From contig NZ_FNZK01000026.1 in the NCBI RefSeq assembly GCF_900109225.1, positions 1-53,676 on the forward strand: a stretch of 53,676 nucleotides of DNA. Direction: 5' to 3'. Under the pieces are notes generated by a model, which saw nothing but the letters and a program-made list of their open reading frames with translations, was not told the DNA's origin and did no database searches. The position numbers and the translations under genes are program-made. Within the stretch, counting starts at the first letter, position 1. Every line of letters begins with the position of its first letter. Positions 28,534 to 34,622 of the stretch are shown here, one piece after another. Source of the stretch: Propionispira arboris (lineage in GTDB: Bacteria > Bacillota > Negativicutes > Selenomonadales > Selenomonadaceae).

Positions 28534-28551
28534 TTGAGAGGAGAGATTATA

Positions 28552-30786
28552 TTGAATAGATTGTCAAAACATAAAAAAAAAGTCTTATATGCATTAGTGG
28601 GCAGCAGCTTAGTATTGCAAACACCCGCAGTTGTATACGCAGATGAAACGGAGACTGCGGCTGAACCTGTGCAGCAAAGCAACGCCAGCAAAGAAATTAG
28701 GCAGGAAAAAGCAGCGGGAAATGAATTTTCCTTTGAGGGAATCACTGTTTTTGCAAAACGTGAAGAAAAGAAAAAAGATGCGGAAGATACATATGTGGGC
28801 GGGAAACTTTCAAAAAAAGCTAATGTCGGAATTTTAGGTAGTGCCGATATTTTTTCGATTCCATTTAATATTACGAGCTATACAGCCCAAGAAATTGAAT
28901 CGAAACAAGCAAGAACGCTTTCGGATATTTTGCTTGACGATTCATCCGTACGATTTACGACATCGAGTGGACATATGAATGAAAACTATACCATTCGTGG
29001 ATTTGATGTTACAGCAGATGACCTGAGTTTGAATGGTCTATATGGTCTTGCTCCCTCGGGGCATGTGCCGACGGAATTTATCGATCGAGTCGAAGTTTTA
29101 AAAGGGCCGAGTGCACTTTTGAATGGTACGCCGCCAGGGGGATCGGTTGGCGGTACAGTAAATATTGTTACGAAAAAAGCCGGGTCAGAGTCTGTTACAC
29201 GTCTTACGACGGATTATGCATCGGGTTCGCAGATGGGGTTGCATTTGGACCTTGGACGGCGTTTTGGGGAAGCAAAAGAATGGGGAATCCGCCTAAACGC
29301 TGCAACGCGCGATGGGCAAACTGGTGTTGACGGGCAAAAGAAAGAGCGGGCTTTTGGCTCAATTAATGTCGATTATCAAGGGCAAAATTGGCGAATGTAT
29401 CTTGATGCATTTGATAATGAAGAAAAATTCAAAAATGGTTCTTCGATGATGGTGAATTTTAAAAATTCTGTTACAGCAATTCCCGATGCACCGGAGGGGG
29501 ATGTTAATGCTTTCAAAGGTGCCAATGCAAGTCTCGAAAATAAAGGGGCAATGCTGCGTGGTGAATATGATCTTAGTAAGAATTTGACGGCATATGCTGG
29601 TATCGGCTACCTTGAAAATACATATGAAGGTTTTATAAACTCAACGCATGCTAGAGGCGTTGATTCCGAGGGGAATTATACGGGCTATACTACATATATC
29701 AATGGATATTCGAATAATGTATCAGCTGAAGCTGGTCTGCGCCAGAGCTTTAAGACAGGGATGGTAAATCATAAAATGGTTATGAGTGCTACGCGCCTGG
29801 AGACAGAGAGCGGGTCGGCTTACACCGAAAGCGCACGCTATGCGTCCAATATTTATCATCCGGTTATCCCATTGCTTGTTGCAGTTGCATCGGATGCACC
29901 CAAAACGGCAGAAAGTACCTTGAACAGTATTGCTTTTGCGGATACTTTGTCTTTTGGCGGAGATAAATACAATCTGACATTAGGTGTACGCAACCAGACG
30001 ATTGAAAGTAAAAATTACAATCGTTCCACAGGAGCAAGGACAGCTTCTTACAATAAAAATGCCGTAACCCCGGCGATTGCGTTTGTTTTTAAACCATGGG
30101 ACAAACCAGTTTCTTTTTATGCAAATTATATCGAGGGTTTAAGCAAAGGTAGTACGGTTACCGATACAGCGGCAGCGAATTATGGTGAGGTATTTGCACC
30201 GTTTAAAACAAAACAAGCAGAAGTTGGCGTGAAGTGGGAAAATGGAACATTTGCTAATACGTTGAGCTTTTTCCAAATTAAGAAACCAAGCCTTTTGAAA
30301 GACAGTTTGAGCAATACCTATAATGAATCTGGAAAACAGCGAAATCGTGGGATTGAATGGAGTGCTTTTGGCAACCTAAATAACGAAGTGTCCATTTTAG
30401 GTGGTATCACCTATATGCGTGGAGTGCAGACTCATACGCAAAGTGGAACCAATGATGGAAAAACAGCGTATGGAGTTCCGGTTTGGCAAGCAAATGTTAG
30501 TTTCGAATATGCCGTACCACATGTGCAAGGTTTGAGTTTTGATACACGCCTGGTTTATACAGGATCGCAGTATACAAACAATAATAATACAGCGAAAATT
30601 CCTTCCTGGATGCGATTCGATGCCGGGCTGCAGTATAAAACGTCATTGCAGGGAAATCCGACTACGCTGCGCTTTAGCGTGGAAAATCTAACAAATAAAA
30701 ATTATTGGTCAGGCTTGTTTAGAGAAGATTATTTGACGATAGGCAATGGACGTACATATAAGTTATCGATGTCAATTGATTTGTAA
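28552..30786 (+). CDS. TonB-dependent ferric siderophore receptor
   Basis: Outer-membrane receptor of 744 residues. From the TTG at 28552 (GGAGAG six bases upstream; no ATG is available) it has a signal peptide of about 28 residues ending VVYA before DETE. The plug domain spans about 100-230 (SIPFNITSYTAQEIESKQ, RVEVLKGPSALLNGTPPGG, GTVNIVTKKA), followed by a 22-strand barrel. The closing strand ends SMSIDL rather than in an aromatic residue. The spread of plug motifs fits ferric siderophore receptors of the FhuA/FecA/FpvA sort. It proves a diderm envelope. Iron repression follows from the perfect Fur box upstream. Confidence 0.93.
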   Translation: MNRLSKHKKKVLYALVGSSLVLQTPAVVYADETETAAEPVQQSNASKEIRQEKAAGNEFSFEGITVFAKREEKKKDAEDTYVGGKLSKKANVGILGSADIFSIPFNITSYTAQEIESKQARTLSDILLDDSSVRFTTSSGHMNENYTIRGFDVTADDLSLNGLYGLAPSGHVPTEFIDRVEVLKGPSALLNGTPPGGSVGGTVNIVTKKAGSESVTRLTTDYASGSQMGLHLDLGRRFGEAKEWGIRLNAATRDGQTGVDGQKKERAFGSINVDYQGQNWRMYLDAFDNEEKFKNGSSMMVNFKNSVTAIPDAPEGDVNAFKGANASLENKGAMLRGEYDLSKNLTAYAGIGYLENTYEGFINSTHARGVDSEGNYTGYTTYINGYSNNVSAEAGLRQSFKTGMVNHKMVMSATRLETESGSAYTESARYASNIYHPVIPLLVAVASDAPKTAESTLNSIAFADTLSFGGDKYNLTLGVRNQTIESKNYNRSTGARTASYNKNAVTPAIAFVFKPWDKPVSFYANYIEGLSKGSTVTDTAAANYGEVFAPFKTKQAEVGVKWENGTFANTLSFFQIKKPSLLKDSLSNTYNESGKQRNRGIEWSAFGNLNNEVSILGGITYMRGVQTHTQSGTNDGKTAYGVPVWQANVSFEYAVPHVQGLSFDTRLVYTGSQYTNNNNTAKIPSWMRFDAGLQYKTSLQGNPTTLRFSVENLTNKNYWSGLFREDYLTIGNGRTYKLSMSIDL

Positions 30787-30795
30787 GGTGGCTTT

Positions 30796-31125
30796 ATGCA
30801 GATAAAAAAAATAAAGACAGAATGGGTCTGTGTGGAAGAACTTCTCTTTCACACAAGCCCTGTACTTGTGATGCTTATGCGGTTTTTAGCTGCAATAGCA
30901 GGTGGTATAAGTTTGACGTATTTTATGGAAAAGATCTTGTCACTTGCCAATTTATTCGGAGCCTTGGAGACGATTTTTCTTTGCGAGTGGCTTGCCCCCA
31001 TTTTTTATGTATTCGGGTTATGGTATGCATTTTCGGTTGTAAACGTGGCGTTGGTATGGAGAAATTTTTTATTCGTTACGCTCGTCAGTAGATTGATTGT
31101 CGGTGGATTTTATTTGTTTCAGTGA
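30796..31125 (+). CDS. Small membrane protein of the iron-uptake operon
   Basis: Protein of 109 residues with three predicted spans (about 22-45, 55-80, 85-108). I recognise no family. It starts 9 bp after the receptor gene and overlaps the upstream region of the PepSY gene. Small proteins in this place are common in Fur-regulated receptor/PepSY operons and may help couple the inner membrane to uptake or iron reduction. Confidence 0.65.
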   Translation: MQIKKIKTEWVCVEELLFHTSPVLVMLMRFLAAIAGGISLTYFMEKILSLANLFGALETIFLCEWLAPIFYVFGLWYAFSVVNVALVWRNFLFVTLVSRLIVGGFYLFQ

Positions 31126-31142
31126 AGGAGGTTATCGAGACG

Positions 31143-32633
31143 ATGCGTGATTTTCACACGTGGGGTGGTCTTTTTTTTGGTTGGCTGTTGTTTATCGTAT
31201 TTTTTACGGGAACATTGTCTGTTTTTGCACCTGAAATTACCTATTGGATGACGCCAGAAGCACGCGTGGCGGCAGCTAATCATGGACAGGCTCTGCAAGC
31301 AGCTGAAAAAGCCTTACAGGAAAATGCCTCTGATGCAGATATGTGGTTTGTGATTTTGCCGCAAGGACGGACAAAGTCACTGGAAATTTCCTGGCAAAAG
31401 AATGGACAGAAATTTGAGCGGTACGTACATCCCGAAACAGGTGAAACGTTAAACGTTCGCCAAACAAAAGGGGGCGAATTCTTCGCAGAATTTCATTACC
31501 AGTTGCACCATGAGCCACTTGGAATCTGGATTGTTAGCATTGCTGGTGGTATGATGATCATGGCGATTTTTTCAGGTATTGCAATTCGAAAAAAAGTGAT
31601 CTTTGATTTTTTTTCTTTTCGTTGGCGAAAGAATTTTTTTAGTATTCATACAATGAGTGGAGTAATGACGTTGCCGTTTGTCGTGATCATTACTTATACG
31701 GGGCTTGTTATGGCGTTTACAGAAGTGATGCCTGTTGCGCTGCATACGTTTTACAAAAACGAAGGTGGATTTTGGACGGAATTTCTACAAAGTGTTGAGC
31801 GGCCGAAAAGTCAGGTATGGGCGAAATTATATCCACTAGCAGAACTTTTACCAGTGGCGGAACAAGAACTGGGCGAAGGGCAGTTGGCATTTGTTCAAAT
31901 CAAACAGCCAAATACAGAAAATGCAGTTATTCATTTTATGCGCCGTGTAGATGATCGGATGCTGGCCATTACAGACCGTGCTAGTTTTGATGGTGTAACA
32001 GGGCAATGGCTTATTACAAAAAATACATGGGATACCCAGGCTGTAATTGTTCGGTCGATGGTTGGGCTTCATATTGCAAAGTTTGGCGGCTATCCAATGG
32101 CTTGGGGATATTTTTTATTTGGACTGATTAGCAGCGGTATGATTGCTACGGGCTTGGTTTTTTTCACAATAAAGCGCCGATTAGTATATGAAAGAGCAAG
32201 CGCTGGAACACAAAATTTTTTCAAAAAAGTTGAGTCTTTTAATATTGCGGTAGTTTGTGGTTGTATCGTAGCTGTCAGTGCCTATTTTTGGGCAAATCGA
32301 CTATTGCCACTATCACTGAACGGGCGCGAAGATATGGAAGTGGGGATCTTTTTTCTTGCCTGGGGGATCATGATATGTCATGCTTTTCGGCGGTCAGTTA
32401 AAGTGGCGTGGGTTGAGCAATTAAAAATTAGTGCCACTTTATTTTTTATATTACCATTTTTTAGTGTCTGGAAAACTTCGGAAAAATTTTGGTACCTACT
32501 TTCTACAGGAGAATGGATGAGCATCGCGGTAGAGCTGGTTTTTTTCTTGGCGGCGATTATTTTATGGGCAGCAGCACATAAATTAAATAAACAATGGAAA
32601 TTGAATCATAAAAATGAGTTTCTTTCCGAATAA
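31143..32633 (+). CDS. PepSY-associated transmembrane protein, siderophore uptake
   Basis: Inner-membrane protein of 496 residues with four or more spans and a large periplasmic part. It opens RDFHTWGGLFFGWLLFIVFFTGTLSVF, the usual PepSY_TM start with its conserved His and Trp, and has further paired His (HYQLHHEPLG, SIHTMSG, VGLHIAKFGG) suited to haem binding. Such proteins are thought to reduce ferric siderophores at the inner membrane. I use the ATG at 31143 with AAGGAGG 11 bases upstream; a GTG at 31122 lies before that ribosome site. Confidence 0.85.
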   Translation: MRDFHTWGGLFFGWLLFIVFFTGTLSVFAPEITYWMTPEARVAAANHGQALQAAEKALQENASDADMWFVILPQGRTKSLEISWQKNGQKFERYVHPETGETLNVRQTKGGEFFAEFHYQLHHEPLGIWIVSIAGGMMIMAIFSGIAIRKKVIFDFFSFRWRKNFFSIHTMSGVMTLPFVVIITYTGLVMAFTEVMPVALHTFYKNEGGFWTEFLQSVERPKSQVWAKLYPLAELLPVAEQELGEGQLAFVQIKQPNTENAVIHFMRRVDDRMLAITDRASFDGVTGQWLITKNTWDTQAVIVRSMVGLHIAKFGGYPMAWGYFLFGLISSGMIATGLVFFTIKRRLVYERASAGTQNFFKKVESFNIAVVCGCIVAVSAYFWANRLLPLSLNGREDMEVGIFFLAWGIMICHAFRRSVKVAWVEQLKISATLFFILPFFSVWKTSEKFWYLLSTGEWMSIAVELVFFLAAIILWAAAHKLNKQWKLNHKNEFLSE

Positions 32634-32637
32634 TAAA

Positions 32638-32672
32638 GGACGCATGCCTGGGATTTTGCCAGATATGCGTCC
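32638..32672 (-). terminator. Hairpin between convergent PepSY and GGDEF genes
   Basis: GGACGCAT and ATGCGTCC pair around a 19 nt loop. T-rich sequence follows only on the minus strand, so it serves the GGDEF gene mainly. Confidence 0.5.
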
Positions 32673-32697: not shown

Positions 32698-33312
32698 TCA
32701 ACAAATTGTGCTTTTGTTTTTCCCCGACTTTTTGGAGTTGTACATCGCATTATCACTACGCGTTAGAATGGAATCTACGGTGTCGCCTTTTTTTATTTTT
32801 GTTATTCCCCAGCTTAATGTAATGTCTTGAAAGTGATTATTTATTTGGATGTTTGTTAAACTTAGACGGATTTTATTTTCAATTATTTTTGCCTGTTCCG
32901 TGTTAAGATCTTCTAATATAATTAAAAACTCTTCTCCACCTAAACGTCCCGCAAAACTGTTTTTTGGTATGGATTCTTTGATTGTTTTGGAAACAGTAAT
33001 TAAAACCTGATCACCGCTCGTGTGCCCATAGGTGTCATTCACTTTTTTGAAATAGTCAATATCGCCAAACATAATACAGGTGTCATAAATGGTTGGGTCA
33101 ATTGTCGTGATGAAATAATTTAATTTATCTTGAATAAATTTGCGAGAAAATAAACCTGTTAAATAATCCGTATTTAACATTTGTGAAAATTTTTTATTCA
33201 CACAGTTCAATTCATAATTTTTTTGTTCTAATTCTCGATTGCAATTCGCTAATTCATTATTTAATTTTGAAATGATGGCGTAGATATGTTCGGCTTTCTT
33301 AGAATAATGCAC
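32698..33312 (-). CDS. Diguanylate cyclase (GGDEF) with coiled-coil N-terminus
   Basis: Protein of 204 residues. Residues 8-45 form a coiled coil (KLNNELANCNRELEQKNYEL), and the rest is a complete GGDEF domain: DYLTGLFSRKF (49-59), metal-binding GDIDYFKK (83-90), active site GGEEF (125-129). It should make cyclic di-GMP once dimerised. The RxxD inhibition site five residues before GGEEF is absent. There is no sensor domain of its own; the cobalamin-binding protein encoded 30 bp upstream in the same operon is the obvious candidate sensor. Confidence 0.9.
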   Translation of the reverse strand: MHYSKKAEHIYAIISKLNNELANCNRELEQKNYELNCVNKKFSQMLNTDYLTGLFSRKFIQDKLNYFITTIDPTIYDTCIMFGDIDYFKKVNDTYGHTSGDQVLITVSKTIKESIPKNSFAGRLGGEEFLIILEDLNTEQAKIIENKIRLSLTNIQINNHFQDITLSWGITKIKKGDTVDSILTRSDNAMYNSKKSGKNKSTIC

Positions 33313-33342
33313 AGAGCAGCCTCCTTAGATAATCTTATCTGG

Positions 33343-34446
33343 TTATAATACCACTGCTTTTTCATTCGTAGCAGTGTTCTTTTTTAGGTTACACCAGTGA
33401 TTATTGGCTAGATTTAAAAATTCTTCGGCATTTCTTGCAAGATTGTCAGCTTTTAATTTGATCCAGATATCAGGAGCGTAATTAAATATATTTCCGCCGA
33501 CAATGACTAATGTACTGGGTGGCGTACGTTTCTTTATAGACTGAATGATCTCAAATGCATTCGCTAGATTATAGGGCATTGAAATACTGAGTCCGATTAT
33601 ATCAGGTTTTAGAAGATCTATTTCTTTTAATAATAAATTTGTTTCCGTATTACTGCCTAAATAATGCACATCCCAACCATCCGATTCTAAGAGATCGGCC
33701 GACATTCTCGCACCAATTTCATGATATTCATTAAAAATTGTAGCTAAAATAGCGGTTCCTTTTTTGTGATCACCCAATACATATTGGCTGTATAATGCCG
33801 TCATGATATTTATAACGATTGCAGACGCCAAATGCTCTTGAGCAACACTGATTTTTTGCGTTTCCCACAAATAACCAATATCGTATAAGCAAGGCTGAAT
33901 TACAGTGAGATAAAAATCTTTTAACGTCTCTTTATCATGTACGTGGTTTTCAGTTAAATCTAATGCGGTTGTTTTTTCTCCTGCTAAAATTATTTGTAAA
34001 AACTGATCTTTTAGCATAGTGTTACTAGATATTGATTGATTTTTCAATAAATTTATATTTGATTCAGCAATTTTTATAAAATTTTTATGGTTTTTTATGA
34101 GTGAATCATATACATTTATCAATTCGGTATTATCATGTTGGGAAATGTTTTTCTGAATCGCATATTTCCAAGCTTTAAATTCACACAGGATCGTATTGTA
34201 ATTTTTTCCTGTTCTATACCACCAAATAACTAAGTATGTCAGAAGGTTATAATCTGCATATTGAAAAATATTTGACATATAGTTAAAATGTATTTCTTGA
34301 TATAGATAATTTGTAGTTTGTTTACGGTTTAAATATCGTATAGCATCAGCAAGTAGAAATTGTTTTTTTTCTTTTAACAATAATAAAGAATCTAAAGAAA
34401 CTGGTTTTAAATGAAATAAAAATTTTTTATACTGGCTTGAAAACAT
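33343..34446 (-). CDS. Cobalamin-binding protein with CarH-type photoreceptor signature
   Basis: Protein of 367 residues from the second ATG (34446), because the first (34455) abuts the GGGGAG ribosome site. Residues about 145-215 form the four-helix cap of B12 photoreceptors, with Trp194, nine residues, then Glu204-His205, the Wx9EH pattern of CarH that covers adenosylcobalamin. Residues about 230-350 are a B12-binding Rossmann fold with ExHxxG (Glu240, His242, Gly245), where His242 should be the lower axial ligand, plus SISM and VGGN. The N-terminal 130 residues are helical and not the MerR-type DNA-binding domain, so this is not a CarH repressor. Its partner is probably the diguanylate cyclase downstream. 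Confidence 0.85.
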   Translation of the reverse strand: MFSSQYKKFLFHLKPVSLDSLLLLKEKKQFLLADAIRYLNRKQTTNYLYQEIHFNYMSNIFQYADYNLLTYLVIWWYRTGKNYNTILCEFKAWKYAIQKNISQHDNTELINVYDSLIKNHKNFIKIAESNINLLKNQSISSNTMLKDQFLQIILAGEKTTALDLTENHVHDKETLKDFYLTVIQPCLYDIGYLWETQKISVAQEHLASAIVINIMTALYSQYVLGDHKKGTAILATIFNEYHEIGARMSADLLESDGWDVHYLGSNTETNLLLKEIDLLKPDIIGLSISMPYNLANAFEIIQSIKKRTPPSTLVIVGGNIFNYAPDIWIKLKADNLARNAEEFLNLANNHWCNLKKNTATNEKAVVL

Positions 34447-34622
34447 ATAAAACATCTCCCCATATTTGATGCTTTATTAAACTTACTTTGATTATTAGAC
34501 AAATATATCGATTTTCCTTTAAAAATAAATGCTCGAGTATTATTTTGTTGAATGCAGGAGCATTTTGATCAAATTGAAAGAAAAATGGGTATGTGTTATA
34601 TTTGATAGATGGAGGGATGAAA

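Follow-up and report, generated by a model that had tools for sequence, protein, structure and literature searches.

The window analysed here, a 53,676-nt stretch of DNA from Propionispira arboris, carries on its minus strand two adjacent genes with the layout of an operon. The upstream gene (33343..34455) encodes a B12-binding protein of 370 amino acids, composed of a probable globin/phycobiliprotein-like N-terminal domain (34048..34455, about residues 1-136), a helical B12-binding_2 cap (33793..34011, residues 149-221) and a B12-binding Rossmann domain (33466..33756, residues 234-330). An alternative ATG at 34446, corresponding to Met4, is preferred over the start at 34455 because a GGGGAG motif lies 9 nt before it and abuts the upstream ATG. 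Residues are numbered below from 34455; counting from 34446 turns W197, E207, H208 and H245 into W194, E204, H205 and H242. The downstream gene (32698..33312, minus strand) codes for a diguanylate cyclase of 204 amino acids that starts with a GTG preceded, seven nt ahead, by the ribosome-binding site AAGGAGG. This site lies in the 30-nt gap between the two genes (33313..33342, minus strand), whose sequence is the same in P. raffinosivorans. A hairpin followed by a T-rich tail downstream of the cyclase gene (32638..32672, minus strand; -20.7 kcal/mol, z -3.94) is probably the operon terminator; it is missing from the list of a simple scanner. The promoter scan returned 18 sites for 12.8 expected in shuffled sequences and was not used as evidence. 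Genes for a TonB-dependent receptor and a PepSY-type membrane protein occupy positions 28534-32633 of the window, convergent with the operon, and adjoin the B12/cyclase pair in P. raffinosivorans too.

Pfam recognises both the cap (B12-binding_2, 2.5e-13) and the Rossmann domain (B12-binding, 8.3e-18). Nine residues separate Trp197 from E207-H208 in the cap, and the NEYHEIG segment of the Rossmann domain contains the ExHxxG site (EYHEIG) with His245 as the predicted lower ligand. The Wx9EH cap and the ExHxxG histidine described in the first-pass annotation are thus confirmed, with residue numbers that are exact for the start at 34446. The absence of a DNA-binding domain also noted there is borne out by the Pfam search, which found no MerR domain, and by the CarH model NF052513, whose score of 50.6 bits falls far short of the cut-off at 400. 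The same annotation had taken the protein for a CarH-like photoreceptor. The cap and the His site agree with this, but photocobilins, not CarH, are the closest known relatives by sequence and structure. In the sequence search against solved proteins, photocobilin entries 8j2x (3.2e-16) and 8j2y (2.7e-10) precede CarH 5c8a (4.8e-5). The AF2 model of the whole protein is confident (pLDDT 90.8, pTM 0.89) and comes closest, among solved proteins, to SasPcob, a photocobilin (8j2x, 209 columns at an rmsd of 2.1), and to CtMerR; CarH domains match too, and methionine synthase and MttC fit with a larger deviation.

The N-terminal region of about 140 amino acids, overlooked in the first-pass annotation, is conserved through the B12-protein family (alignment of 37 rows) and is probably a globin/phycobiliprotein-like domain. 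Its fold was assessed on residues 1-150 of a representative relative (L033), the domain of the window protein being modelled within the whole protein. The L033 model (pLDDT 97) had globins or phycobiliproteins as all 50 structural matches listed. It aligned to the DosC globin with Z 14.0 (rmsd 2.4, 133 residues), to smURFP with Z 13.9 and to residues 227-346 of SasPcob 8j2x with Z 12.2 (rmsd 2.5, 116 residues), values to be read against the best Z near 14 that helical models can reach as background. Because of this background, and because Foldseek gave nothing below E 0.001 for this domain (best 0.039), the globin-like fold is graded as probable and not as certain. In the 37-row alignment the Propionispira protein is devoid of the family's IGxNPLxxMYDNH stretch and of most of the YxxHGFSYDYF stretch. 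Eighteen loci with an ORF limited to the B12 domain were inspected, and in 11 of them each half has a gene of its own, the B12 part of about 210-250 aa lying next to the globin-like part of about 143-190 aa (L052, L053, L055, L056, L057, L059, L061, L062, L064, L068 and L074, mostly Bacteroidales). Apparent frameshifts or stops, due to sequencing error or decay, break the B12 gene into two or three ORFs in L017, L025 and L087.

The distribution of the B12 protein is sparse. Its closest named relative, with 94% identity, belongs to P. raffinosivorans DSM 20765 (L015). Among 100 relatives' genomes, 11 had any match at 1e-10, the whole protein being present at high identity in the same-genus genome only and at 28-32% identity in two further genomes of the class. 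The full-length protein occurs in two of the 61 genomes of the window's family group (f1), both of its genus; the five other genomes of this group with a match have frames of ~800 aa, from their size presumably methionine synthase, that match in their C-terminal part only. A sample of 300 genomes of the class yielded 77 with a match at 1e-20. The whole core protein is found in G000, G075, G081 and G127, a more distant one in G197 and G266, and nearly all remaining matches are C-terminal parts of ~800 aa frames. In two phylum samples searched at E 1e-50 the protein was matched in 19 of 297 and 13 of 299 genomes, B12-domain-only matches counted. Further genomes, chosen as carriers, have one copy each (12 of 12 at E 1e-40).

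The product of the second gene is a GGDEF protein (Pfam, 2.3e-38) with an intact GGEEF active site. It begins with a signalling helix (33208..33273, minus strand; residues 14-35, within ISKLNNELANCNRELEQKNYELN; profile match 1.4e-10). The genome encodes 18 GGDEF proteins, of which this B12-adjacent one alone carries the helix; the other 17 give no match at E 10. The first-pass annotation saw a coiled coil as the sole input of the cyclase; indeed no other input domain is present, but the coil is not a generic one, being a specific helix with the motif LNNELANxxRELxxKNxEL (consensus MSKLNNELANLTRELQKKNRELEEANAKIKRL) shared with the partners of related B12 proteins. These partners are organised as a PAS-like region, then the helix, then a GGDEF domain, a Cys-rich end or a histidine kinase. 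The PAS-like region, carried by most core partners, is weak in Pfam (best E 0.00097, under cut-offs) and the Propionispira cyclase starts at the helix without it. The qualification of the enzyme as sensorless therefore holds for the Propionispira version and not for the majority of its counterparts. A wrong start concealing a PAS domain was rejected, the intergenic space being just 30 nt. As annotated at first pass, the cyclase gene lies 30 bp from the B12 gene and its product has no inhibition site: the sequence context IPKNSFAGRL lacks the RxxD motif, which is optional among diguanylate cyclases. RxxD is kept in 25 of 29 distinct helix-GGDEF ORFs and absent in the two of Propionispira and in L156 and L157.

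Phylogenetic co-occurrence, put forward in the first-pass annotation as a way to probe the link between the two proteins, is found well beyond the genus. Core members of the B12 family were defined by a score of at least 300 (45 distinct, 44 of them with at least 400 nt downstream). In 36 of these 44 relatives the gene that directly follows the B12 gene encodes a helix partner, a count in which related genes are not independent events. Its output is a GGDEF domain in 19, a Cys-rich end in 16 and a kinase in 1. Of the 24 partners that went into the helix profile, 23 belong to the 44 core loci; among the remaining 21 core loci the helix partner was found in 13, the two Propionispira included. 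As a control, the 283 other same-strand neighbour pairs of loci L015-L094 had the helix downstream in 0 cases, a GGDEF domain in 9 and a Cys-rich end in 1, and chance pairing was rejected on this comparison. GGDEF is downstream in 16 of the 68 pairs of L015-L094 that start with a B12-family ORF. Across the examined loci, which are partly redundant, 73 of 4353 ORFs match the helix and 67 of the 73 lie directly downstream of a B12 ORF by the rule applied. Coordinates indicate that those of L047, L147, L049, L070 and L134 overlap the B12 gene beyond this rule, and that of L140 is upstream. The named core loci with a helix partner belong to at least 11 NCBI phyla, mostly as metagenome-assembled genomes, and the output type changes at least six times on a quick tree. 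Gene order thus supports the view that the B12 protein and the helix partner form a conserved two-gene unit.

Eight of the 44 core loci have no helix partner by the rule (L005, L006, L016, L030, L032, L080, L098 and L134), which counts against an action of the B12 protein on this helix. L005, L006 and L098 belong to the window's own class, and in L134 an overlapping frame contains a helix ORF. In the wider set of relatives (150-300 bits) the helix is present in 9 of 20 loci; six of the 11 without it adjoin a GGDEF or kinase gene (L065, L072, L073, L083, L089 and L159), so the helix would not be the sole route to an output. No ORF in the examined loci combines the B12 family with the helix or with GGDEF, a further point against control of the partner in trans. 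Other neighbours were seen beside partnerless genes: an HD-domain gene (HD-GYP-type) just upstream of the B12 gene in L005 (189-1307), a GGDEF gene overlapping the start of the B12 gene in L016 (4946-5815), and a divergent CheB/CheR-type chemotaxis gene beside the Sporomusaceae member L006 (2761-3915).

We favour, with modest confidence, the hypothesis that the operon encodes a two-protein switch in which a B12 sensor acts in trans on the helix of its partner and sets cyclase activity. The B12 protein would bind adenosylcobalamin in the His-on mode via His245, the adenosyl group being held by Trp197 and Glu207. An altered state of this group would alter the cap and the globin-like domain, and the protein would signal by direct contact with a dimeric helix at the cyclase N-terminus. 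The helix would determine how the two GGDEF domains are placed relative to each other and thereby how fast c-di-GMP is made. Since the cyclase has neither a sensor domain of its own nor an RxxD site, it would be controlled mainly by the B12 protein. Adenosylcobalamin binding is expected by analogy with the relatives; the protein contact and its effect on the cyclase we infer. That neighbouring relatives of the pair occur in very different bacteria suggests that the B12 protein switches the cyclase. The hypothesis is supported by the pairing and its control, by the confinement of the helix to one GGDEF protein of the genome and by the recurrence of sensorless partners, as well as by the photocobilin-like arrangement of cap and Rossmann domain, the dN/dS values given below and the presence of an adenosyltransferase gene. 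The host genome (4.26 Mb) codes for this adenosyltransferase, 18 GGDEF domains and one PilZ domain, which makes both the cofactor and a c-di-GMP target plausible. Control of cyclases by B12 proteins, including separate proteins in vitro, is already published: separate photocobilins alter AbDGC activity in a direction that depends on the bound chromophores, and a fused cyclase is activated by light (PMC10979010). In LOV cyclases, coiled coils set GGDEF activity (PMC12805367).

Two accounts keep this wiring and differ in the signal, so that the likelihoods we attach to them overlap with that of the switch and do not sum to one. The signature reported for light-responsive B12 domains (SignatureFinder) comprises GxxW, EH, GxxH and GxxxP (PMC11796333). 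All 37 family rows have GxxW (G194 to W197, GYLW in Propionispira) and EH, a conservation that is not independent evidence because 32 of the rows come from a scan whose patterns, built on WE..IS.A and EHLA, selected those residues. The first position of GxxH is Asn in 30 of the 37 rows (NExH; NEYH in Propionispira), Gly in 5, Asp in 1 and Ser in 1. Asn being the family norm, its reading as a loss specific to Propionispira was rejected. The proline of GxxxP is present in 35 of 37 rows and replaced by Glu (GSNTE) in the two Propionispira rows only. Propionispira differs therefore at two of the four elements, Gly to Asn and Pro to Glu, and the case for light-dependent control made in the first-pass annotation, though GxxW and EH are kept, is weaker than assumed. 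In CtMerR the Gly works via its main chain and the corresponding Pro is part of a contact with the neighbouring monomer (PMC11796333), from which Asn may be tolerated and the loss of Pro may weaken a dimer contact. The position of TtCarH His132 is Glu in 34 of 37 rows (Glu198 in Propionispira), making a TtCarH-type bis-His state through the residue after Trp impossible. Biliverdin appears unlikely as a second chromophore, judging from gene content and alignment: a search of 19 carrier genomes for heme oxygenase PF01126, that of P. arboris included, found it in 0 (the control detected it in 3 of 14 known genomes), and no column of the N-domain alignment has Cys in more than 4 of 37 rows, so that no Cys-rich column is present.

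It is a serious possibility, though of somewhat less than even chances, that the switch responds not to light but to the supply of cofactor, such as adenosyl- as against other cobalamins, or to redox state, such as exposure to oxygen. The missing heme oxygenase, which leaves no obvious bilin, and the departures at GxxH, GxxxP and the His132 position go in this direction, and many core members are from lineages usually regarded as anaerobic. Effective monomerisation of TtCarH itself needed oxygen (PMC11796333). However, the Trp and Glu-His pocket and, in other members, GxxxP are the elements in contact with the adenosyl group of light receptors (PMC11796333), and AbDPcob activity was raised by light and not by exchanging adenosyl for other ligands (PMC10979010). 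A CarH-type light receptor, whose dark oligomer would disassemble in the light to release or activate the cyclase, appears rather unlikely. It can draw on GxxW, EH and the His ligand, invariant in the 37 rows largely by selection, and on the structural match to CarH domains. It has to accommodate the Glu after Trp, the Glu in place of the GxxxP proline, the lack of a DNA-binding domain and a CarH-model score far under the cut-off.

The Propionispira pair could also be a decaying remnant, with parts of both proteins gone and signalling abolished. Relative to the family, the N-terminal stretches, the proline, the PAS-like region and RxxD are missing, and the branch leading to the B12 protein is long (1.48 on the quick tree). 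Both frames are nonetheless open in the two Propionispira species, the same pair being present in P. raffinosivorans (L004/L015), which also makes assembly contamination unlikely. The dN/dS between the two species is 0.20 for the B12 gene and 0.07 for the cyclase gene, the latter resting on 2 amino-acid-changing and 7 silent differences; by this comparison both genes are under purifying selection. With GGEEF intact, the gap and ribosome-binding site identical and the cap residues kept, decay is improbable. The sensorless partners counted above in favour of the switch, with a helix almost at the N-terminus that leaves no room for a sensor, adjoin B12 genes on a second branch of the tree (L138, L139, L141, L154 and L155). 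That of L139 is a GGDEF protein of 214 aa; those of L138 and L154 have HisKA/HATPase domains in Pfam, and L141 and L155 are likewise sensorless by sequence. The long branch and the loss of the two N-terminal stretches and of the GxxxP proline imply that coupling by the Propionispira B12 protein may differ from that of its family. As those stretches and the PAS-like region are missing together, the two may touch each other in other species, a guess from one genus. Finally, a corrinoid methyl-carrier protein with an unrelated neighbour is very improbable: it would fit the weak matches to methyltransferase corrinoid proteins and the second B12-type ORF and possible methyltransferase, as we presume from its sequence, upstream of the B12 sensor gene in L029 (2233-3907), but the closest solved relatives are photocobilins, the Trp/Glu-His cap is like that of adenosylcobalamin receptors and the partner is conserved across phyla.

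The switch in trans that we favour has parallels in several known systems. The photocobilins SasPcob (8j2w/8j2x), the best match of the B12 protein among solved proteins by both sequence and structure, and AbDPcob (8j2y) likewise join a B12 domain to a globin-like domain (PMC10979010). AbDPcob is fused to its cyclase, whereas the Propionispira cyclase is encoded separately and bears a specific helix. In the Propionispira protein and its family, unlike in SasPcob and AbDPcob, the globin-like domain precedes the B12 domain, and the family differs from photocobilins also by the lack of a Cys-rich N-domain column and of heme oxygenase in the 19 carrier genomes searched; predicted photocobilin relatives have the B12 domain at either end (PMC10979010). 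CarH/LitR proteins (TtCarH, 5c8d) share the cap, the Rossmann fold, the Trp, the Glu-His pair and the His ligand. Propionispira departs from them by the absence of a MerR domain, by Glu for His132, NExH for GxxH and GSNTE for GxxxP, and by its separate partner gene, so the first-pass view of a design unlike that of the CarH repressor stands. The photoglobin family of Schneider et al. 2022 (PMC8717448) is reported to consist of non-heme globins that are linked, within signalling proteins, with B12 domains. The signalling helix described as connecting input to output domains in many signalling proteins (PMC1592074) is alike by description only; the helix found here is marked by a specific motif that goes with a neighbouring B12 gene, and it can serve as the sole input region. 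The titles and abstract starts of the papers listed for cobalamin photoreceptors, photoglobins, photocobilins and B12/c-di-GMP do not report the pair of B12 gene and helix partner, which the photoglobin paper (PMC8717448) may already contain.

More tentatively, the pair could represent a general two-protein B12 cassette present in at least 11 phyla, in which a bilin-free globin-B12 protein docks on one helix with interchangeable cyclase, histidine-kinase or Cys-rich outputs; Propionispira would have its minimal form, with the helix as sole cyclase input. The specific helix of the conserved neighbour is a likely target for such B12 proteins, and the Propionispira genes offer a minimal pair for testing. 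If light or the adenosylcobalamin state sets c-di-GMP through a separate cyclase of 204 aa, this would be a simple natural two-part switch that links B12 chemistry, in bacteria without known light responses, to behaviour under c-di-GMP control. The Cys-rich end of partners, labelled Cys-rich/zinc-ribbon-like from its Cys spacing, reads IPICxxCKxIRDDxGYW...FSHGICPxC and had no Pfam family over the motif in the seven partners scanned. Partners of this type are the downstream genes in L021, L022, L026, L029, L031, L033, L035, L039, L041, L045, L054 and L075.
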